Below are positions 1 through 13,031 of a stretch of 64,000 nucleotides of DNA, one piece after another. A program made the translations under genes and the position numbers. The notes under the pieces were generated by a model. It searched no databases and was not told the origin of the DNA. It saw nothing but the letters and a program-made list of their open reading frames with translations. Each line of letters opens with the position of its first letter. Within the stretch, counting starts at the first letter, position 1. The stretch is taken from positions 1-64,000 of the forward strand of contig NZ_FOTF01000012.1 in NCBI RefSeq assembly GCF_900114485.1, in the 5' to 3' direction. This stretch comes from Loktanella salsilacus (GTDB lineage: Bacteria > Pseudomonadota > Alphaproteobacteria > Rhodobacterales > Rhodobacteraceae).

Positions 1-288
1 CGCTATCCATCATTGCGACATGTATTTGCGGATGGCGGGTATGCAGGGCCCAAACTGCGGGACGCGCTAAAGGCCCTCGGCCGATGGACCGTCCAGATCG
101 TCAAACGCTCTGACACCGCGGAGGGCTTTGAAGTGCTGCCGCGACGGTGGGTCGTCGAGCGCACCTTCGCCTGGCTGAACCGATGTCGCCGCCTATCGAA
201 AGATTGGGAAAAATCCATCGCAAGCGCAGAGGCTTGGATCCTCATCGCACACATCAGACGCGTCACACGGCATCTCGCAAGGGATTGA
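1..288 (+). CDS. IS5-family transposase, C-terminal fragment (5' end outside window)
   Basis: The frame is open from the first base. It contains the DDE-type catalytic pieces expected near the C-terminus of an IS5 transposase: an FADGGYAG segment carrying the second Asp, and an RRWVVERTFAWLNRCRRL segment carrying the catalytic Glu with the R-x3-E spacing typical of the family. Only the last 95 or so residues are present. Whether the element is intact, or split into two frames as many IS5 transposases are, cannot be judged from here. Confidence 0.9.
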   Translation, partial: RYPSLRHVFADGGYAGPKLRDALKALGRWTVQIVKRSDTAEGFEVLPRRWVVERTFAWLNRCRRLSKDWEKSIASAEAWILIAHIRRVTRHLARD

Positions 289-317: not shown

Positions 318-1412
318 TTAGATCAGCGTGACCGCTTGACCGGTCAGCGCGGATTGCTGGGCTGCCATGCCCATACGCACGGCCATCGCGCCGTCTTTGA
401 CTGTGACCTCCACGCCCGCCTCTGCCCGCACGGCAGCGGCAAACCGCTGGTGCTGATAGAAGGTCGCGCCGTTATGATCGCCTGCCTCTAGCAAAAGCGG
501 ATCAACAGGGATTTCTACCGTATACGGCCCCTTGGGATCGCGGGGGCTGACGGTCAGCGTTGGGATCGGGGCCGCGCCCAAGGCGGACGGCCAGAACCGG
601 CCGGGACCGGGCACCTGCACTTCGATCTTGCCTTGCGGGCCAAGGGCGCAGATTTCCTCTTGGAAACGGGCGCCTTCGGCGAACATGCACAGTTCCAGCA
701 TGGCGCGGGTGCCATTGGCGAAATCGACGATGACAAAGGCGTTGTCCCAGATATCAGGCGTTTGCCCGTCATAGGATTCGTCCAGATGGTTCGCCGCCTG
801 CCCGCCGCTGGCCATGATGCGCACCGGCTCTGACTGCACGATCAGCCGCATCAGGTCGAAGAAGTGGCAGCACTTTTCCACCAGCGTGCCGCCGGTGCGG
901 GCGTTAAAGCGGTTCCAGTCGCCGATCTTGGGCAGGAACGGAAAGCGGTGTTCGCGGATGGTCAGCATCTTGATGCCGCCCGTCGCAGCCTCGGCCTGCG
1001 CAACAAAGGCAGAAACGGGGGGCATGTAGCGGTATTCCATCGCGACCCAAACCGGGTGCGGGTAATCGCGGAACAACTCTTCGACCTCTGCCGCCTCGGC
1101 GGGGTCTACGAACAGCGGCTTTTCGCACAGGATCGGCAGTGGGCGCTGCGCCACGATCTGGCGCAGTTGCGGCAGGTGGCAGTCGTTGGGGCTGACGATG
1201 ACCAGCGCGTCCAAATCCGCCTGCCCCAACAGATCGTCAAGGCTGGTCGCGACGCGTGCGCCGCCCGCAAGGCGCGCCGCGGCCTGCGCCAGATCATCCA
1301 CCGGATCGTAAACGACCGCGACGGCGGCATCCGGCAGCAAGGCAATGTTGCGCACATGCTCTTGCGCCATCATCCCGCAGCCAATCAGCCCGTAGTTCAT
1401 TACTTTCGACAT
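318..1412 (-). CDS. Gfo/Idh/MocA-family NAD(P)-dependent oxidoreductase
   Basis: A 364-residue protein with an N-terminal Rossmann fold (GLIGCGMM at residues 8-15), the family EKP motif at 97-99, and a GGTLVEKCCHFFDL segment at 174-187 holding the putative catalytic Lys180 and His183. Family members oxidise or reduce sugars, inositols and related polyols, usually with NAD(P). The start was placed at the ATG preceded by GAGGA, one base after the GntR stop; a longer reading would run into the regulator gene. It forms a two-gene operon with the GntR regulator and is divergent from the monooxygenase/TRAP operon, so it probably acts on the same or a related substrate. An IS5 element ends exactly at its stop codon. 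The substrate is unknown. Confidence 0.85.
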   Translation of the reverse strand: MSKVMNYGLIGCGMMAQEHVRNIALLPDAAVAVVYDPVDDLAQAAARLAGGARVATSLDDLLGQADLDALVIVSPNDCHLPQLRQIVAQRPLPILCEKPLFVDPAEAAEVEELFRDYPHPVWVAMEYRYMPPVSAFVAQAEAATGGIKMLTIREHRFPFLPKIGDWNRFNARTGGTLVEKCCHFFDLMRLIVQSEPVRIMASGGQAANHLDESYDGQTPDIWDNAFVIVDFANGTRAMLELCMFAEGARFQEEICALGPQGKIEVQVPGPGRFWPSALGAAPIPTLTVSPRDPKGPYTVEIPVDPLLLEAGDHNGATFYQHQRFAAAVRAEAGVEVTVKDGAMAVRMGMAAQQSALTGQAVTLI

Positions 1413-1413
1413 T

Positions 1414-2121
1414 TTATCCTCGTCCCATGCGCGATACGTACCGCGCCCTTTCATGATCGAACCATGTGCGTGAAAACTCTGCCCGTGCGCCGTCCGCAGC
1501 CCGGCTGACGCGCGAGATATGGGCCGACATCGTGCCCGGTTTCACCGCAAAATCCGGCGGGGCCCAATCTGGCACAGCGCGCAAACCGATGCGGTCTTCG
1601 ACAGATGTGATCACCAGCCCCAGCCGGTCGCGATAATGGCGATACAGCGAATCCGACAGATCATCCGCCGACAGCCGCGCCGCGCGGGCGGCGTCCAGCC
1701 AGATCTCCTCGACCGCGATCGGCACGTCGTCAATCCGGCGCAAACGGCGGATACGCCAGCCTTGCGCGGCGGCACCAAAAGCGGGTGCATCCTGCGGTTT
1801 TGGGCAAAGCGTCACGTCCAGCACGGTGGCCGTTGGCAAGCCGCCGCCATTGGGGCGTTCAAGGCGAAAGAAGCTATAGACCGACTGCACATCAGGGCGC
1901 TGGCGGATGTAATTCCCCGACCCTTGGACGCGGACCAGCAATCCTTGTTCTGTCAGCAATGCCAATGCCTTGCGCAGCGTTCCTACGGATAAATCCAGAT
2001 CCTGCGCCATCGTGCGTTCATTTGGCAGCCGGGTGCCATCGGCCAAGTGGCCCGCTGCGATTTCACGGATCAGACGTTCGCTGACCTGCACGTATTTGGG
2101 CAAAGGGGGCTTGGGCGGCAC
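1414..2121 (-). CDS. GntR-family (HutC/UTRA type) transcriptional regulator
   Basis: The N-terminal winged helix-turn-helix (KYVQVSERLIREIAAG, then LPNERTMAQDLDLSVGTLRKAL) is followed by a C-terminal UTRA-like effector domain. That is the HutC subfamily layout, at about 235 residues. The frame stays open further upstream, but a GTG just before the conserved HTH start gives the usual length, with a weak GGA upstream; the start is therefore moderately certain. The gene sits head to head with the monooxygenase/TRAP operon, and an 82-base gap holds a direct repeat that may be its operator. It most likely represses both arms until a pathway substrate or product binds the UTRA domain. Confidence 0.85.
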   Translation of the reverse strand: MPPKPPLPKYVQVSERLIREIAAGHLADGTRLPNERTMAQDLDLSVGTLRKALALLTEQGLLVRVQGSGNYIRQRPDVQSVYSFFRLERPNGGGLPTATVLDVTLCPKPQDAPAFGAAAQGWRIRRLRRIDDVPIAVEEIWLDAARAARLSADDLSDSLYRHYRDRLGLVITSVEDRIGLRAVPDWAPPDFAVKPGTMSAHISRVSRAADGARAEFSRTWFDHERARYVSRMGRG

Positions 2122-2136
2122 AGTAATATTCCAAAT

Positions 2137-2156
2137 TGATACACTATTGTTACACT
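2137..2156. promoter_or_regulatory. Candidate GntR operator: TGATACACT-AT-TGTTACACT direct repeat
   Basis: Two 9-base half sites that agree at 8 positions are spaced 11 bases apart, one helical turn, in the short AT-rich gap between the divergent GntR gene and the monooxygenase operon. A second direct repeat, CCAAAT at 2131-2136 and 2157-2162, flanks them. The placement suits control of both promoters. No convincing -35/-10 pair was picked out here. Confidence 0.45.
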
Positions 2157-2203
2157 CCAAATCCCATGCTATGCAAGCCCCAACACCAGCGGGAGGAGCC
2201 GCC

Positions 2204-3364
2204 ATGACCGATACTGTTGTCCCCGTCACCAGCCGCGATTTAGACGCAGCAGAGGTGTCCTGGTTCTCTGCGCTATGCTCTGATGACTACCAATTCCTAG
2301 GCGTGCCAGACGGCGATCTGCGTTCCAGCTGGGAGCATTGCCGCGACATCGGCCTAGAGGCAGAGCGTCAGGGATTTCGCAACCTGCTGGCCCCGTCGTC
2401 CTATCAGGTCGGCCAAGACACGCTGTCCTATGTCGCCGCCATGGCGCCGCTGACGGACCGCATCAACTTTCTTGCCGCCATCAGGTGCGGGGAAATGCAG
2501 CCGATCATGCTGGCCCGCACCGTCGCCACGCTGGACCACATGCTAAAGGGTCGTTTGACCCTGAACGTGATCAGCAGCGATTTCCCCGGTGAAAAGGCTG
2601 ACAGCGCATTTCGCTATCGCCGCAGCCACGAAGTGGTCGAGATTTTGCGTCAGGCTTGGACGCGTGACAAGATTAACTTCAGCGGCGAAGTCTATGATTT
2701 CAAAGACGTTCCCACTGAACCTGCGACGCCCTATCAGACGGGTGGCCCGCTGCTGTATTTCGGCGGCTATTCCCCCGATGCGCTGGAACTGTGCGGCGCA
2801 CAATGCGACGTCTATCTGATGTGGCCGGAAACCAAGGACGTTCTGGCGCAGCGCATGAAAGACGTTCATGCCCGCGCCGAAGCCCACGGCCGCACGCTGG
2901 ATTACGGTCTGCGCGTCCATATGATCGTGCGCGACACAGAGGCCGAGGCGAAGGAATACGCCGAATATATCGCCAGCAAGCTGGACGACGAATACGGCAA
3001 ACTGATCCGCGACCGCGCCCATGACAGCATCAGCCTTGGCGTCGCCCATCAGGCACGCGCCCGCGAATTGGCCGACCAATTCGGCTATACCGAACCGGGC
3101 CTGTGGACGGGCATTGGCCGCGCGCGGTCCGGTTGCGGCGCAGCGCTTGTCGGGTCCACGGATCAGATTATGTCCAAGATCGAAGATTACCAAAAGATGG
3201 GCATCCGCGCCTTCATCTTCTCTGGTTATCCGCATATCGAAGAGGCGCAGCACTTCGGCAGCCGCGTCATGCCGCACTTGAAAACTTGTTCACTGCCCGA
3301 AGCTTATGGCCGGGTGCCAACGACCACACCGCAGACGCCGCTTGGCGCAGGACCCCGGATATGA
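2204..3364 (+). CDS. LLM-class flavin-dependent monooxygenase (alkanesulfonate/sulfoquinovose monooxygenase-like)
   Basis: A 386-residue bacterial-luciferase-like protein, close to the 381 residues of SsuD. The family pattern runs throughout: an N-terminal strand VSWFSALCSDDYQF, RLTLNVISSDFPGEK in the middle, YFGGYSPDA, and the C-terminal GIGRARSGCGAALVGS. Such enzymes use FMNH2 and O2 to cleave C-S or related bonds. The start is the ATG six bases after a GGGAGGAG ribosome site. The stop overlaps the next gene by ATGA, and a flavin reductase lies two genes on to supply FMNH2. With an aldo/keto reductase next door, the set resembles the SmoC/SmoB/SmoA desulfonation trio. The substrate is not proven, and an alkanesulfonate or sulfone is also possible. 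Confidence 0.85.
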   Translation: MTDTVVPVTSRDLDAAEVSWFSALCSDDYQFLGVPDGDLRSSWEHCRDIGLEAERQGFRNLLAPSSYQVGQDTLSYVAAMAPLTDRINFLAAIRCGEMQPIMLARTVATLDHMLKGRLTLNVISSDFPGEKADSAFRYRRSHEVVEILRQAWTRDKINFSGEVYDFKDVPTEPATPYQTGGPLLYFGGYSPDALELCGAQCDVYLMWPETKDVLAQRMKDVHARAEAHGRTLDYGLRVHMIVRDTEAEAKEYAEYIASKLDDEYGKLIRDRAHDSISLGVAHQARARELADQFGYTEPGLWTGIGRARSGCGAALVGSTDQIMSKIEDYQKMGIRAFIFSGYPHIEEAQHFGSRVMPHLKTCSLPEAYGRVPTTTPQTPLGAGPRI

Positions 3365-4257
3365 ACCGCATCAAGATCACCGATTCCGTTGAATTCAGCC
3401 GCATCGTCTATGGCATGTGGCGCCTTGGCGATGACGATGACACCAGCCCCGCGCATGTGCAGGCCAAGATCGAAGCCTGCCTTGACCAAGGCATCACCAC
3501 GATGGATCAGGCCGACATCTATGGCGGCTACATGGCCGAGGAAATCATGGGCGCGGCGCTCAAAGCGGCCCCCGCCCTGAAGGACAAGATCGAGGTCGTG
3601 ACCAAATGCGACATCGTGATCGACGCTGGCCGCCACGCTGGCGCGACGGTCAAGCATTACGACACCAGCCGCGCCTATATTAACGCGTCGGTTGATGCGT
3701 CGCTGTCGCTGATGGGCATCGATAAAATCGACATGCTGCTGATCCACCGCCCCGATCCGCTGATGGACCACCTGGAAACCGGCCGCGCGCTGGACGATCT
3801 GGTCGCATCCGGCAAGGTCCGCGCCGTCGGCGTGTCGAACTTTCGCCCGTGGGACTGGTCCTTGCTGCAATCCGGCATGGACACCCCGCTGTCGACCAAC
3901 CAGATCGAACTGTCGCTCGCCAACATCGCGCCCTTCGTGAACGGCGATGTCGCGCACCTGCAGCAGCACGCCAAGCCGATCATGGCATGGTCGCCCCTTG
4001 GCGGCGGCCGGCTGATGGACAGCGCTGGCGGGCCAAATCTGCATGCCTTGATGACCCAAATGGCAGAAGAGTCCGGCACCGACACAGCGGCCATTGCGGT
4101 GGCTTGGTTGCTGGCGCATCCTGCCAATATTCTGCCCGTCATGGGCACCAATACGCTGAGCCGTATCGCCACTCTGGCGGACGCCATGAAAGTTAAAATG
4201 AGCCGTCAGGCGTGGTATCAGCTCTATACCGCCGCCCTCGGACACGAGGTTGCATAA
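3361..4257 (+). CDS. Aldo/keto reductase (SmoB/YdhF-like)
   Basis: A 298-residue AKR-fold enzyme. Visible catalytic elements are DQADIYGG (Asp and Tyr), VVTKCD (Lys) and LLIHRPD (His), with GVSNF downstream and a C-terminal NADPH-site region around PVMGTNTLSRI. It reduces aldehydes or ketones with NAD(P)H. Its ATG overlaps the stop of the monooxygenase gene, and its own stop abuts the flavin reductase start, so the three are translated as a unit. In the sulfo-SMO route the equivalent enzyme, SmoB, reduces the 6-oxo-glucose released by desulfonation. That role is an inference here. Confidence 0.85.
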   Translation: MNRIKITDSVEFSRIVYGMWRLGDDDDTSPAHVQAKIEACLDQGITTMDQADIYGGYMAEEIMGAALKAAPALKDKIEVVTKCDIVIDAGRHAGATVKHYDTSRAYINASVDASLSLMGIDKIDMLLIHRPDPLMDHLETGRALDDLVASGKVRAVGVSNFRPWDWSLLQSGMDTPLSTNQIELSLANIAPFVNGDVAHLQQHAKPIMAWSPLGGGRLMDSAGGPNLHALMTQMAEESGTDTAAIAVAWLLAHPANILPVMGTNTLSRIATLADAMKVKMSRQAWYQLYTAALGHEVA

Positions 4258-4764
4258 ATGGACGCAGGTACAATCAGCACGTTCGATCCCGCCAGCGACG
4301 CGGACAGCTTTCGCGGCGCTTTGGGCACATTTGTCACCGGCGTGACGGTGATCACGACCGACAGCCCAGACGGTCCGGTCGCCATCGTCGCCAACAGCTT
4401 TGCCAGCGTGTCGCTTGACCCGCCCATGGTGCTGTGGTCGCCGGCAAAATCCAGCAAACGGTTCGAGCATTTCGCCGGCGCGCGCCGCTTTGCCGTGCAT
4501 GTGCTGTCCGCCGATCAGCGCGACATCTGCACCGCGATTATCGGGTCGAAGACCGCGATCTCTAAGGTGCCGATGCACCTGTCCCATTGCGGTATGCCGA
4601 TCATCGAAGGCGCTTTGGCGACCTTTGAATGCAACCTAGAAGCCACCCATGACGCAGGCGATCACGTCATCGTCGTCGGCCGCGTCACCAAGGCCCACCA
4701 CGGCGGCGGTGACCCGCTTGTCTTCCACGCGGGCAAATACGGTGCCTTCACGCAGACAGACTAA
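4258..4764 (+). CDS. NAD(P)H:flavin oxidoreductase (flavin reductase-like, DIM6/NTAB family)
   Basis: A 168-residue protein with the flavin-reductase signature FRGALGTFVTGVTVITT near the N-terminus, then NSFASVSLDPPMVLWSPAKSS and a C-terminal GDHVIVVGRV and FHAGKYGAF. It should reduce free FMN and hand it to the two-component monooxygenase encoded two genes upstream. The start ATG follows directly on the stop codon of the aldo/keto reductase gene. A GC-rich repeat and a hairpin lie just downstream, so transcription of the following TRAP genes may be reduced relative to this part. Confidence 0.88.
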   Translation: MDAGTISTFDPASDADSFRGALGTFVTGVTVITTDSPDGPVAIVANSFASVSLDPPMVLWSPAKSSKRFEHFAGARRFAVHVLSADQRDICTAIIGSKTAISKVPMHLSHCGMPIIEGALATFECNLEATHDAGDHVIVVGRVTKAHHGGGDPLVFHAGKYGAFTQTD

Positions 4765-4774
4765 CGATATCCGC

Positions 4775-4834
4775 CTTCTCCTGGTTAAAAATATCTCGGG
4801 GGGAGGCGCGCAGCGACGGGGGGCTGGCCCCCCC
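4775..4834 (+). repeat. Intergenic repeat, copy A (CTTCTCCTGGTT..AATATCTCGGGGG + G6C/GC6 hairpin)
   Basis: The most diverged of four copies in the window (others at 8199-8256, 20243-20303 reversed and 20437-20495). All have a TTCT.CTGGT...AAATA.CTCGGGGG core followed by a perfect G-run/C-run hairpin, here GGGGGGC-TG-GCCCCCC at 4818-4833. It lies between the flavin reductase and the TRAP genes. Confidence 0.7.
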
Positions 4835-4839
4835 TACCT

Positions 4840-4858
4840 GATTTTTCGCCGAAAAATC
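4840..4858. terminator. Perfect inverted repeat GATTTTTCG-C-CGAAAAATC
   Basis: A 9-base perfect inverted repeat around one central base, directly after the GC-rich repeat. Because the arms contain T and A runs it would act as a terminator-like hairpin on both strands. A close relative with the same TTTTCGnCGAAAA core stands at 16068-16088. Confidence 0.5.
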
Positions 4859-4897
4859 GGCCACGCCCGCACTGGGCACAACAGGGGAGGAGCCGGC

Positions 4898-5488
4898 ATG
4901 CCGGTCCTGTTTGGGGTCCTTTGGCCCTTGCAACGTCTGAACACCGGATTGCTGGCCGTCGGCCGGACAATCGCTGTTGCGCTGCTTGCAGCGATGGTCT
5001 GCTTCATTCTGGGGCAGGTGTTTTTCCGCTATGTCCTGAACGACGCCCCGCGCTGGACCGAAGAGGCCGCGCGCTTTGGCATGCTGTGGATGACCGGGCT
5101 GATGGCCCCCGTCGCCTACCGTCAGGGCGGCTTTGTCGCGATTGACATGGTCGAACGCGCCCTACCCCGCATTGCCGCTGGCATCCTGACCCTTGTGCTG
5201 CTGTCCCTATCGCTTTGGGTGCTGTGCGTCATGTGGGACCGCGGCCTGAATAACCACGTCTTTAGCCTGTCCGGGCGCGGCACCATGCCATCCCTGCGTG
5301 TGCCGCTGGACCTATTCGGCGGCGAAAGCATCAAGTTCAAGAACCAATGGATGTTTGCCTCGCTCTTCGTGGGCGTCACCCTGCTGATCCTTGTGAACAT
5401 CGAACTGATGCTGCGCCAGATCATTACCCTGCTGGGCGGGGCTGCGCGTTTGACACCGCTGGCCGATAAGACTGTGATGGCTGAATAA
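4898..5488 (+). CDS. dctQ: TRAP transporter small permease (DctQ)
   Basis: A 196-residue membrane protein with four predicted hydrophobic segments: GRTIAVALLAAMVCFILGQVFF, the MLWMTGLMAPVAYR region, ILTLVLLSLSLWVLCVMW and MFASLFVGVTLLILVNI. The DctQ marker RWTEEAARFGMLW lies after the first segment. A GGGGAGGAG ribosome site precedes the ATG. The gene overlaps the large permease by one base (TAATG). It is the structural partner of DctM in Na+- or proton-driven uptake of an acidic solute captured by DctP. Confidence 0.9.
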   Translation: MPVLFGVLWPLQRLNTGLLAVGRTIAVALLAAMVCFILGQVFFRYVLNDAPRWTEEAARFGMLWMTGLMAPVAYRQGGFVAIDMVERALPRIAAGILTLVLLSLSLWVLCVMWDRGLNNHVFSLSGRGTMPSLRVPLDLFGGESIKFKNQWMFASLFVGVTLLILVNIELMLRQIITLLGGAARLTPLADKTVMAE

Positions 5489-6966
5489 TGCTGCTTTTAT
5501 TCCTTCCCCTTTTCCTGATCCTGATCCTTTTCGGCCTGCCCATCGTCTTTGCACTGATGGTGTCCCCCATCGCGATGATCATGATCGAAGGCGACGCCCG
5601 CAATGTCGTCGCGGGCCTATACCGCAACCTTTACAACGGCATGGACAGCTTCCCGCTAATGGCGCTGCCCTTCTTTATGCTGGCCGGCGAAATCATGAAC
5701 CGGGGCGGCATCACGATGCGCCTGGTGGAATTTTCCCAAGCCTTCATCGGGCATCTGCGCGGCGGTCTGGCCCATGTGAATATCCTGTCCAGCTTTCTGT
5801 TCGCGGGCATGTCCGGCTCTGCCGTCGCCGACGTCTCGGCCCTCGGCTCTACCCTGATCCCCGCGATGGAACAGAACGGCTATACCCGCCGCTTTGCCGC
5901 TGCGATCACCGCGGCCAGTTCCGTCATCGGCCCGATCATCCCGCCGTCCGGCATCATGATCATCTACGCCTATGTCATGGGCGAGTCTGTCGCCGCCTTG
6001 TTCCTTGCGGGCATCGTGCCGGGCATCCTGATCGGCCTTGGCCTGATGGCAACGGTCTGGTTCATGGCCGACCGCTATGACCTTCCCAAGGCCGAACGCA
6101 TCGTCCACCCCGGCCAGACCATCAGCCGCGTCGAATACTGGGTCAGCTTTGCCCTGCTGCGCCTGAACTTTGCCTATATCATGTATGCGGTTGCCGGCCT
6201 TATCCCCGGCGCAGGTGCGGTCCCCGGCCTGCTGCTGTTCGGGGTCATGCTGGTCCCCGCCCACCTGATCCTGCTGGGCTACCGCAAACGGGTCAGCCAC
6301 GATTTCCGCCTAATCTGCAAAAAGGCCGTGGCCCCGATGCAGACCCCGATCATCATCCTTGGCGGCATCCTGATCGGCGTCTTCACCCCGACCGAAGCCT
6401 CTGCCGTCGCCGTCGCCTATGCGCTGGTGATCAGCTTTGTGGTGCTGCGGTCCATGACCCTTGCGGACCTGTGGGCCGTGCTGGGCAAATCCGCCCTTGG
6501 CACCGCCGCCGTACTGCTGCTGGTGGGCGCGGCTGTCGCGTTCAAGACCGTGGTATCGCTGTCCTACGCGCCAGAGATCCTTGCCGATTTCATGCTGTCC
6601 CTGTCCAGCAACCCGCTGATCCTGCTGTTCCTGATCAACATCCTGCTCTTCGTTGTCGGCATGTTCCTCGACGCGGGTCCCGCGATCATCATCCTCGGCC
6701 CGATCCTTGGCCCGATCTTCGTCTCGCTCGGCGTCGACCCGATCCATTTTGCGATGATCATGTCGGTCAACCTGACCGTCGGCCTTGCGACACCGCCCAT
6801 GGGGCTGGTGCTTTTCGTGACCTCGACGGTGTCGGGCGAACGGGTCGAAACCATCGCAAAAGCCATCCTGCCTTTCCTCGCGGTCGAGATCGCGGTGATC
6901 TTTCTGATCACCTATATCCCCGCGATATCTATGACGATTCCGCGCTTGACTGGCTTTGCCAACTGA
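5488..6966 (+). CDS. dctM: TRAP transporter large permease (DctM)
   Basis: A 492-residue polytopic membrane protein. Family features include MALPFFMLAGEIMNRGG, the MSGSAVADVSALGSTLIPAM segment, IGPIIPPSGIMIIYAY, and the C-terminal LATPPMGLVLFVTS that lines the transport path. It is longer than the usual 425-445 residues because of an insert of about 60 residues around residues 195-270, between the two halves; long DctM proteins of this sort occur. It is translationally coupled to dctQ and followed 38 bases later by the binding protein gene. Confidence 0.92.
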   Translation: MLLLFLPLFLILILFGLPIVFALMVSPIAMIMIEGDARNVVAGLYRNLYNGMDSFPLMALPFFMLAGEIMNRGGITMRLVEFSQAFIGHLRGGLAHVNILSSFLFAGMSGSAVADVSALGSTLIPAMEQNGYTRRFAAAITAASSVIGPIIPPSGIMIIYAYVMGESVAALFLAGIVPGILIGLGLMATVWFMADRYDLPKAERIVHPGQTISRVEYWVSFALLRLNFAYIMYAVAGLIPGAGAVPGLLLFGVMLVPAHLILLGYRKRVSHDFRLICKKAVAPMQTPIIILGGILIGVFTPTEASAVAVAYALVISFVVLRSMTLADLWAVLGKSALGTAAVLLLVGAAVAFKTVVSLSYAPEILADFMLSLSSNPLILLFLINILLFVVGMFLDAGPAIIILGPILGPIFVSLGVDPIHFAMIMSVNLTVGLATPPMGLVLFVTSTVSGERVETIAKAILPFLAVEIAVIFLITYIPAISMTIPRLTGFAN

Positions 6967-7004
6967 CGCGACACTGCACGAAAACCACCAAGGGAGAGAG
7001 ACCA

Positions 7005-8072
7005 ATGAAACACCTGATCACCGGCGCACTGACCGCCGCCCTACTGGCCAGCACAGCCGCAACAGCCTGGGCGCAAGACGCGACCTATACCCTGCGCGCC
7101 ACCGCCAACAGCAACGAAAATGACGAAGACTACGACGGTCTGGTCGTGTTCAAGAACTACGTCGAAGCCGCGTCAAACGGCGCGATCGAAGTCGAAATGT
7201 TCATCGGCACCCAGCTCTGCGCCACCGGCGAGGAATGCCTTGAAGGCGTCGCCGAAGGCTCCATCGACATCTACATCGCGACATCCGGCGGCACGGCCTC
7301 GCTGTTCCCCTTCGTGCAGGTCCTCGATCTGCCCTACCTGATGGCTGACGACCGCGTGGCCGAATCCGTGCTCGACAACGGCTCGCCCTTCATCGCCACG
7401 ATGCGCGAAATGGTCCGCGAAAGCTCTGGCGACGCGATCCGCCTGATGACCATCGGCAACACCGGCGGCTGGCGCAACGTGGCCAACGTCAACAAAACCA
7501 TTCACACGCCAGAAGACCTGGCTGGCCTGAAAATCCGCACCGTCCCGGCTGAACTGCCGCAGGTTCTGGCGACCGCATGGGGCGCTGCACCAACCGCTAT
7601 TCCATGGCCCGAACTGTTCACCTCGCTGCAAACCGGCGTCGTCGAAGGCACCGCAAACGGCATCACCGACATCATGTCGATGAAATTCCCAGACGCAGGC
7701 CTGAAGTATCTGACACTGGACCAGCACGCCTACATGGGCGCACTGTGGTTCATGAACAACGCCAAGTTCATGGATATGCCAGAAGACATGCGCAAGATCG
7801 TCGCCGATGGCTTCTATCAGCTACAGCAGGCGACCTTCGCCTCGCCCAAGCGTAAATCCATCGACGCCTATGCCGCCTTCACGGCTGCTGGCGGTGAAGT
7901 CTACGTCCCCACGCCCGAGGAAAAGCAAGCGTTCCAAGACGCCGCCGCCCCGGTGCAGGACTGGTTCCGCGAAAACGTTGATGGCGGCCCCGAAGCCCTC
8001 GACGCGCTGCTGGCTTCCGTTGACGCCGTCAACGCCCGCCTTGCCAGCGAATACGAAACCGAACTGAACTAA
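7005..8072 (+). CDS. dctP: TRAP transporter substrate-binding protein (DctP)
   Basis: A 355-residue periplasmic protein with a signal peptide likely cleaved after AWA (residue 23). The DctP fold is recognisable from GVAEGSIDIYIATSG, the EDLAGLKIRT segment with the family Arg that binds a carboxylate or other anion, and PWPELFTSLQTGVVEGTANGI. The start was chosen at the ATG after AGGGAGAG. As the last gene of the monooxygenase-reductase-TRAP operon it defines what is imported, probably the anionic substrate of the monooxygenase. A strong hairpin follows the gene. Confidence 0.92.
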   Translation: MKHLITGALTAALLASTAATAWAQDATYTLRATANSNENDEDYDGLVVFKNYVEAASNGAIEVEMFIGTQLCATGEECLEGVAEGSIDIYIATSGGTASLFPFVQVLDLPYLMADDRVAESVLDNGSPFIATMREMVRESSGDAIRLMTIGNTGGWRNVANVNKTIHTPEDLAGLKIRTVPAELPQVLATAWGAAPTAIPWPELFTSLQTGVVEGTANGITDIMSMKFPDAGLKYLTLDQHAYMGALWFMNNAKFMDMPEDMRKIVADGFYQLQQATFASPKRKSIDAYAAFTAAGGEVYVPTPEEKQAFQDAAAPVQDWFRENVDGGPEALDALLASVDAVNARLASEYETELN

Positions 8073-11999: not shown

Positions 12000-13031
12000 T
12001 TACTGGCAGGCAGCAACTGTATCCATTGCACCTTCACAAGCCTGCTCTTTCGAGATCTGGCCCGCGTCGATCGCAAGGTTCAGGTTGTCAGCAGTGATCG
12101 GGGTTGGCGCAAGGAAGATTGCGTTCATCTCAACGCCCTTTTCGCCGCCAGCCCACTTTTGTGCTTCAGGCACGGCGTCCATTGCAGTGCCAGTGGCCAA
12201 AGCAACTGCGATTTCAGCAGCGCGCTTGCCCAGATCGTTGGAGTTTTTCCAAACGGACACAGTCTGCGTGCCACGTGCAACACGGTTCAGCGCGGCAAGG
12301 TCGCCGTCCTGACCGCCAACTGGCACGTCCATGCCCTGTGCGGTCAGCGCTGCGATTGCGCCGCCAGCCATGCCGTCGTTTTCGGCCAGAACAGCGTCGA
12401 TCTCGTTGTTGGTCGAGGTCAGGATCTGCTCCATGTTCTTCTGAGCGTTCTCTGGCTTCCAGCCGTCAGTGAAAGCTTCACCAGCGATGGTCACGGTGCC
12501 AGCGTCGATCATGGGCTGCAGGACTTCCATCATGCCTTCCAGCAGGAACAGCGCGTTGGGATCACCGGGATCGCCCTTGATGATCGCGACATTGCCTTCG
12601 GGCTGTGCGGCCATGACGGTCTGCGCGATGATCGTGCCGACGCCTTTGTTGTCAAAGGTCAGATAGAACGCGCGGTCGTCTTCGATCAGGCGGTCATAAC
12701 CAACAACAGGAATGCCTTCGGCAGCGGCTTGGTCCAGCGCGGGGACGATCGCGTCCTTGTCCATCGCCAGAATGATCAGCGCGTCTGCGCCCTGTGCGAT
12801 CAGCGCTTCAACGTCAGTCAGCTGCTTGGCAGCGGATGCCTGCGCGTCAGCGGAAATGTAGGATGCGCCAGCAGCTTCCAAAGCGGCCTTGATCGCAGCT
12901 TCGTCAGTCTTCCAGCGCTCTTCTTGAAAGTTGGACCAGCTGACGCCGACGGTCATGCCGTGGCTTTCGGCCAGTGCCGCAGAGCTGAAACCACACGTCG
13001 CAATGACGGCGGCGAGGATGTGCTTGTTCAT
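12000..13031 (-). CDS. xylF: D-xylose-binding periplasmic protein
   Basis: 343 residues with a signal peptide (MNKHILAAVIATCGFSSAALA). The mature protein shows a XylF-like pattern: GVSWSNFQEERWKTDEAAIK at the start, and VGYDRLIEDDRAFYLTFDNKGVG matching the YDR...FDN..VG block of E. coli XylF. GQDGD near residue 265 belongs to the sugar site. The ATG is preceded by GGGAGGAC. It heads the operon, divergent from a ROK regulator, and should capture D-xylose in the periplasm. Confidence 0.93.
   Translation of the reverse strand: MNKHILAAVIATCGFSSAALAESHGMTVGVSWSNFQEERWKTDEAAIKAALEAAGASYISADAQASAAKQLTDVEALIAQGADALIILAMDKDAIVPALDQAAAEGIPVVGYDRLIEDDRAFYLTFDNKGVGTIIAQTVMAAQPEGNVAIIKGDPGDPNALFLLEGMMEVLQPMIDAGTVTIAGEAFTDGWKPENAQKNMEQILTSTNNEIDAVLAENDGMAGGAIAALTAQGMDVPVGGQDGDLAALNRVARGTQTVSVWKNSNDLGKRAAEIAVALATGTAMDAVPEAQKWAGGEKGVEMNAIFLAPTPITADNLNLAIDAGQISKEQACEGAMDTVAACQ

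Follow-up and report, generated by a model that had tools for sequence, protein, structure and literature searches.

What does a tripartite ATP-independent periplasmic (TRAP) transporter import when its genes follow those of a two-component flavin monooxygenase, and on which substrate does such a gene cluster act? The question is raised by positions 318–8072 of a 64,000-nt stretch of Loktanella salsilacus DNA (contig NZ_FOTF01000012.1 of RefSeq assembly GCF_900114485.1, positions 1 to 64,000; the whole stretch is referred to here as the window), where the gene order is sqgA(GH188)–gntR <> smoC–smoB–smoA–dctQ–dctM–dctP in two divergent transcription units (Table 1). A preliminary description had proposed the desulfonation route that starts with a sulfoquinovose monooxygenase (sulfo-SMO). 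Sulfoquinovose (SQ) is the sulfolipid sugar of plants and algae, and its production is estimated at 10 billion tons a year. The cluster is very probably a complete oxidative SQ utilization module with a TRAP importer, and the ligand predicted for the solute-binding protein DctP from its sequence and context is most likely SQ or its glyceryl glycoside, sulfoquinovosyl glycerol (SQGro). Gene calls together with Pfam and NCBIfam matches placed the genes of the cluster where the preliminary description had put them, with the types that it had given. The overlap is ATGA between smoC and smoB and 1 nt between dctQ and dctM, smoB and smoA abut, and the gntR stop codon is next to the start of sqgA; these tight junctions bear out the translation of the monooxygenase, aldo/keto reductase and flavin reductase as a block.

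SmoC was 81.4 % identical to PDB entry 7olf (311/382 aligned residues), compared with 35.2 % to SsuD (123/349). Its bit scores against 7olf and 7oh2 (725 and 710, respectively) were far ahead of those against 7jv3 and both SsuD chains (196–201), dimethylsulfone monooxygenase (101), RutA (~30) and the nitrilotriacetate- and dimethyl-sulfide-type enzymes (24–40), so the score comparison did not place it with the non-sulfonate luciferase-like monooxygenases (LLMs), a grouping that would have spoken against the proposed route. The active-site Arg and His residues singled out earlier for checking were kept, as all counterparts of SsuD residues that we take to be numbered R226, H228, R297 and Y331 were present. 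The match of SmoC to TIGR03565 (241 bits, under the cut-off of 518) indicates membership of the SsuD superfamily; plain alkanesulfonate use of the SsuD type was rejected because SmoC is far closer to 7olf. Its closest relatives among named records were from Loktanella (94, 93, 90 and 90 % identity). SmoB was 66.0 % identical to 7bbz (196/297) and scored 427–429 bits against 7bby and 7bbz, with the next match at 219 bits. We take 7olf and 7oh2 to be SmoC proteins and 7bby and 7bbz to be SmoB proteins; with these scores the sulfo-SMO proposal stood. SmoA matched Pfam Flavin_Reduct, and its best NCBIfam match was FerA (191 bits, under the cut-off of 260); it was 49 % identical to the same-position gene product of Agrobacterium tumefaciens MEJ076 (locus L064), and no match in the PDB carried the name SmoA. 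The genome encodes one glucokinase.

The Gfo/Idh/MocA gene had been read as a dehydrogenase gene, and the window had been said to contain no sulfoquinovosidase. Both statements had to be revised, as the protein, SqgA, is by its sequence and active site a GH188 sulfoquinovosidase. In a phmmer search of PDB sequences its best matches were 8zn9, 8qc2 and 8qc3 (517, 390 and 383 bits), followed at a distance by a match at 75 bits, and its identity was 62.3 % to 8zn9, which bears merely the PDB label ‘oxidoreductase, putative’, and 52.9 % to ArSqgA (8QC3). Entries 8QC2–8QC8 are NAD+-dependent sulfoquinovosidases whose catalytic and sulfonate-binding residues are named in passages of PMC10755693. After transfer with an offset of 13 in the numbering of the PDB entry, all eight of these residues were found in SqgA (K107, Y136, R166, L170, K172, E189, H193 and H321), including the canonical Leu170, a position at which Tyr variants exist (as stated in part of PMC11465081). 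A role as inositol dehydrogenase or other sugar dehydrogenase was rejected on the strength of these matches and residues; the inositol dehydrogenase model matched weakly (116 bits, cut-off 355). A Pfam search of the genome detected no GH31 domain.

By sequence, the operon thus holds a SmoC-type monooxygenase, a SmoB-type aldo/keto reductase and a SmoA-type flavin reductase, with a sulfoquinovosidase in the same cluster. An ATP-binding cassette (ABC) importer, as in A. tumefaciens, was not found in the cluster, where TRAP genes are present instead; a working definition of sulfo-SMO given in part of PMC13372026 asks for SmoB and SmoC matches within 10 ORFs and does not require an ABC importer. 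The sulfo-SMO systems of A. tumefaciens and Novosphingobium aromaticivorans have in common with the window a two-component SQ monooxygenase, an NAD(P)H-dependent 6-dehydroglucose reductase and the products glucose and sulfite (sections of PMC12890257 and PMC9594981), whereas A. tumefaciens has an SQGro ABC importer and a GH31 sulfoquinovosidase in place of TRAP and GH188. The sulfo-SMO clusters of the Roseobacter clade (Kaur et al., 2023; PMC10755693, in part) combine GH188 with sulfo-SMO genes in Rhodobacterales without GH31, GH188 being near-universal in them, and the cluster in the window is a further example of this type. ArSqgA differs in context, the Arthrobacter gene belonging to a sulfoglycolytic Embden–Meyerhof–Parnas (sulfo-EMP) pathway. 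The main text portions of PMC10755693 name no importer class, regulator or operator; a term search gave no occurrence of ‘TRAP’ in the SQ reviews PMC12890257 and PMC9594981, whose passages name an SQGro ABC importer and exporters. None of the papers listed in a literature search describes a TRAP importer for SQ, though one may already appear in Liu et al. (2023), published in ISME J, or in Ma et al. (2025), published in Nat Commun. The enzymes and their Roseobacter GH188 context are already published, and the importer and the operator are the parts that may be new.

At least 584 stretches of the genome collection encode a SmoC relative, and the best 80 of these loci were analysed. GH188, gntR, smoCBA and an adjacent TRAP system occurred together in 52 of the 80, a recurrence which argues that the grouping is not due to chance. 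A TRAP system was adjacent in 52 of the 75 assessable loci, four had a SmoE-type ABC importer and 19 had neither (i.e. no TRAP and no SmoE-type ABC genes, other importer classes in the flanks falling outside the count); five were not assessable. We take SmoE–SmoI to be the names of the A. tumefaciens genes. No importer was found beside smoC more often than this TRAP family, and its replacement of the ABC importer of known Smo systems, as described earlier for the window, was confirmed by the DctQ, DctM and DctP matches and by this recurrence. GH188 was encoded in 75 of the 80 loci, including all 19 with neither importer, and was missing from the four ABC-type loci, which had a GH31 match; the only one of these four tested (L066) matched NF007746, presumably YihQ, at 935 bits (cut-off 553). 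TRAP-type loci occur in the Rhizobiaceae, Stappiaceae and Rhodobacterales, and on a quick SmoC tree without bootstrap the TRAP state changed at least eight times across starred branches.

The association extended to 394 genomes of the family, which were scored at E ≤ 1e-150 for smoC and E ≤ 1e-100 for dctP with at most five candidates per genome. smoC was found in 164 genomes, dctP in 143, both in 109 and neither in 196, so that smoC was present in 109 of 143 dctP-positive genomes vs 55 of 251 dctP-negative ones (Fisher P = 3e-26). Fourteen of the 164 smoC genomes, six of them dctP-positive, had no listed position, and adjacency was judged for 103 of the 109. In every same-contig pair (96/96) dctP lay 4013–5094 bases downstream of smoC on the same strand; of the seven pairs on different contigs, two had smoB/smoA beside TRAP, three had TRAP elsewhere without smo genes and two were on contigs that were too short. 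Ten of the 11 plasmid records with smoC also had dctP. The plasmid records of Ruegeria sp. TM1040 and Paracoccus seriniphilus carry the eight genes found in the L. salsilacus cluster; in Marinovum algicola pMaD9 the place of TRAP downstream is taken by sugar-type ABC genes. In Loktanella atrilutea (L010, SmoC 93 %), smoA adjoins (at 12562–12661) a xylulokinase-like gene where the window has dctQMP, so that two close relatives differ at a single site by the presence or absence of the importer.

Between gntR and smoC lies a 22-bp operator-like motif, AATTGATACACTATTGTTACAC, which the GntR protein presumably binds. With no more than 5/22 mismatches it was found upstream of smoC in 77 of 81 loci, and a single shuffle of each upstream sequence left none (0/81). 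Across the 80 loci (1,535,553 bases) there were three other sites at this threshold, all before a leftward ABC operon in GH31-type clusters, and 20 sites at up to seven mismatches; the L. salsilacus genome has one site only. The core pattern occurred in 152 of the 394 family genomes, with one match listed for the reversed control. Four of 24 genomes without adjacent TRAP have dctP elsewhere, and in all four the motif lay 143–320 nt before the dctQ match. In a further relocated TRAP locus (L242) it lay 328 nt before dctQ with three mismatches, and five of seven relocated TRAP loci had the motif in this place.

In four genomes (G008, G015, G281 and G396; loci L212, L213, L167 and L168) the core motif was immediately followed by a soeA-like molybdoenzyme gene. 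The L167 protein has a Pfam Molybdopterin match; we infer that the enzyme is SoeA, a sulfite dehydrogenase, and the position of the motif fits the release of sulfite. Thirty extra motif sites were picked by eye among the matches listed, and nine could be connected to a context: two before soeA-like genes, three beside GH188, two inside smo/TRAP/ABC clusters and two before EamA-like genes. The other 21 are probably chance matches or unrecognized. The EamA/DMT-type permease-like gene behind the core motif in L215 and L216 (genomes G357 and G273; identified by eye) is a possible further regulon member. Acetate kinase-like genes lie beside the soeA-like gene in L167 and L168, together with a TauE-like gene in L168 (by eye). 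Locus L112 (G167:C14, 4832–10056) has the order sqgA–gntR–motif–dctQMP, lacking smoCBA in between, and its genome gave no smoC at E ≤ 1e-150; L234 (G295:C24) has sqgA–gntR–motif with smoC not alongside. In L. salsilacus itself, a soeA-like gene (79 % to that of L167) and a sugar ABC system lie within 19 kb of one another (L224, C32:20000–39000); these 19 kb contained no smo motif, including before either of the two, and so do not link sulfite oxidation to the regulon in this genome.

The TRAP family was found in a second type of SQ pathway as well. All 34 genomes with dctP and without smoC at E ≤ 1e-150 were examined, in stretches that ended at 18 kb or at contig ends; two of them (L120 and L127) hold smoC pieces. 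An SQ isomerase-type cluster was present in 23, an incomplete smo cluster in seven, and four were assigned to neither. All 23 isomerase-type clusters have GH188; a PfkB kinase and a LacD-type aldolase are encoded in the majority, and an epimerase or aldehyde dehydrogenase in some. They resemble the sulfo-EMP2 pathway (isomerase, PfkB kinase, aldolase and aldehyde dehydrogenase), which is sulfoglycolytic with retention of a C3 sulfonate; they also differ from the smo type in having a DeoR gene (19/23) and in lacking the smo motif (0/23). As a control, the SQ isomerase query matched one of the 80 smoC loci (L058), at 25 % identity. The two contexts interleaved in the tree of DctP sequences, with 10 parsimony changes, at least three of them forced by starred branches, as counted over the labelled rows of a quick tree without bootstrap in which the L118 row is very distant. 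The smo and sulfo-EMP2-like pathways, different in chemistry, have the SQ substrate, the glycosidase family and the TRAP importer in common. The presence of one TRAP family in both, together with the motif at relocated dctQ genes, makes SQ or SQGro a likely ligand. The substrate had been given earlier as a sulfosugar or another aldehyde-yielding sulfonate; GH188 in the cluster and the shared TRAP family support the sulfosugar and narrow the wider choice to the SQ type. In both sulfo-EMP2-type loci inspected, L119 (10075–11883) and L107, dctP and pfkB are separated by a frame that by eye resembles cytochrome c peroxidase.

The transporter is of the DctP type: DctP, DctQ and DctM have Pfam matches, and the Arg conserved in this type (R147 of SiaP) is kept. 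In the isethionate receptor IseP the sulfonate is held by an Arg–Arg–Asn triad (R156, R177 and N217; portion of PMC11668362), to which R157, R178 and N218 of DctP were assigned through the spacings 21 and 40. These three residues and W201 were invariant in 87/87 aligned sequences; the closing position was occupied by an aromatic residue in all 87. IseP ranked first in a Foldseek search with the DctP model, at 22 % identity. A close kinship of the two proteins was rejected on this identity and on a score of 97 bits, below that of 4p47 (119 bits), and the ligands would differ, isethionate being a C2 sulfonate and the proposed ligand of DctP a C6 sugar sulfonate.

DctP would bind periplasmic SQ or SQGro through its Arg–Arg–Asn anion site, and DctQM would import either compound by ion-driven TRAP transport. 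Inside the cell SqgA would cleave the glycoside with catalytic NAD+, following the chemistry published for its family. SmoA would supply FMNH2, with which SmoC, given its 81 % identity to 7olf, is expected to cleave the C–S bond to yield sulfite and 6-dehydroglucose; SmoB, at 66 % identity to 7bbz, would reduce the latter to glucose, which may enter central metabolism through the glucokinase. The divergent GntR protein would repress through the gntR–smoC motif, and binding of a pathway compound to its UTRA domain would end the repression. Beyond the single locus, we favour, with less assurance than for the module itself, a wider proposal: this dedicated TRAP family would be the main high-affinity SQ/SQGro importer of the Rhodobacterales and their neighbours, an exchangeable front end recombined repeatedly between smo and EMP2-like pathways, in a GntR regulon with a 22-bp operator; in some genomes this regulon would also take in a relocated GH188 and a sulfite dehydrogenase.

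Several observations weigh against these proposals. At 15 of the 19 GH188 loci with neither importer the genome has no dctP relative at E ≤ 1e-80 (L010, L024, L026, L046, L051, L053, L059, L062, L063, L065, L071, L072, L074, L079 and L088), and since these genomes have GH188 and smoCBA, the enzymes can be served without this TRAP family and there must be other importers. A further sugar ABC system is encoded by L. salsilacus itself on another contig, C32, with a receptor 56 % identical to that of L014 and an ATPase 49 % identical to a SmoE. The L014 receptor was rejected as a candidate SmoF, its PDB matches being AcbH. No motif was found before dctQ at two relocated TRAP loci, L238 (677 nt upstream covered) and L241. 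The isomerase of L119 had a sole NCBIfam match, NF048012, at 252 bits, under the curated cut-off of 700. The PDB names of 7olf, 7oh2, 7bby and 7bbz are methanesulfonate sulfonatase, alkanesulfonate monooxygenase and aryl-alcohol dehydrogenase. In Foldseek, receptors for sialic acid and further TRAP receptors scored nearly as high as IseP, so that the search did not separate ligands, and the DctP model is weakest beside the pocket (residues 202–227, mean predicted local distance difference test score 79.6).

Some of these points bear on the alternative that SmoABC and GH188 form an SQ pathway while the anion carried by the TRAP system is another one, such as a sugar acid, isethionate or another C2–C3 sulfonate. 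TRAP receptors are mostly carboxylate binders (part of PMC4646407), the Arg–Arg–Asn triad could hold either a carboxylate or a sulfonate, and the 15 genomes just listed manage without the family. What makes this alternative unlikely is the company that the transporter keeps: the dctP family serves the second SQ-type pathway in 23 of 34 dctP-only genomes, where the evident commonality is SQ and GH188, and it is adjacent to smoC in 52 of 75 assessable loci and, where relocated, mostly keeps the smo motif.

A substrate other than SQ would be a C6 sulfosugar such as sulfofucose, or a general alkanesulfonate, with the aldo/keto reductase acting on the resulting aldehyde. The SsuD superfamily membership of SmoC would allow this, and a Paracoccus uses sulfofucose, though via other genes (excerpts of PMC12421959). 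We regard such a substrate as very improbable in view of the closeness of SmoC to 7olf, the complete GH188 active site, the importer held in common with SQ isomerase-type clusters and the exchange of GH188 for a GH31 match in the four ABC-type loci. Equally little credit is due to a role of the Gfo/Idh/MocA protein as a dehydrogenase of SQ or glucose: its fold family is rich in dehydrogenases and the weak inositol dehydrogenase match points that way, but 8zn9 and two characterized GH188 proteins score far ahead of any other PDB match and none of the eight residues has been lost. An SQ module with a TRAP importer of SQ or SQGro is therefore preferred.

If this is true, DctP would add sulfonated sugars for the first time to the ligands of TRAP receptors, and the proposal makes a prediction that can be tested, namely that receptors of this class take C6 sugar sulfonates. 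A known SQ receptor would offer a marker gene for uptake in metagenomes and would tie one importer to two pathways, with the operator motif available for finding more regulon members. Roseobacter-clade bacteria have been argued to contribute to marine SQ turnover (PMC10755693, in the portions cited above).

Table 1. Features of the SQ cluster and its left border (positions in the window)
Feature	Position	Strand	Basis
sqgA, GH188 NAD+-dependent sulfoquinovosidase by sequence (Gfo/Idh/MocA fold), 364 aa	318..1412	-	phmmer, active-site residues
GntR/UTRA regulator, 235 aa, GTG start	1414..2121	-	Pfam GntR + UTRA; start from relatives and sequence
smoC, predicted FMNH2-dependent SQ monooxygenase, LLM type, 386 aa	2204..3364	+	identity, kept residues
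smoB, aldo/keto reductase predicted for 6-dehydroglucose, 298 aa	3361..4257	+	identity to 7bbz
smoA, flavin reductase, 168 aa	4258..4764	+	Pfam Flavin_Reduct
dctQ, TRAP small permease	4898..5488	+	Pfam DctQ; start from relatives
dctM, TRAP large permease	5488..6966	+	TIGR00786, 402 bits, above cut-off
dctP, TRAP solute-binding protein and proposed receptor for SQ/SQGro, 355 aa	7005..8072	+	Pfam DctP; NF037995 above cut-off
Operator-like motif AATTGATACACTATTGTTACAC, between divergent gntR and smoC	2134..2155	+	recurrence upstream of smoC
Possible sigma-70-like smoC promoter TTGTTA-17-TATGCA, -35 within motif	2147..2175	+	sequence inspection, inferred
Probable transposase C-terminal fragment, left border, outside the system	1..285	+	open frame; by eye from motifs

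On its left side the cluster reaches almost to the start of the window, which is also the end of the contig (an assembly break), and the transposase-like fragment lies 33 bp from the sqgA stop codon. On its right side dctP is followed by a xylose operon on the opposite strand, with a xylulokinase-like gene after dctP.

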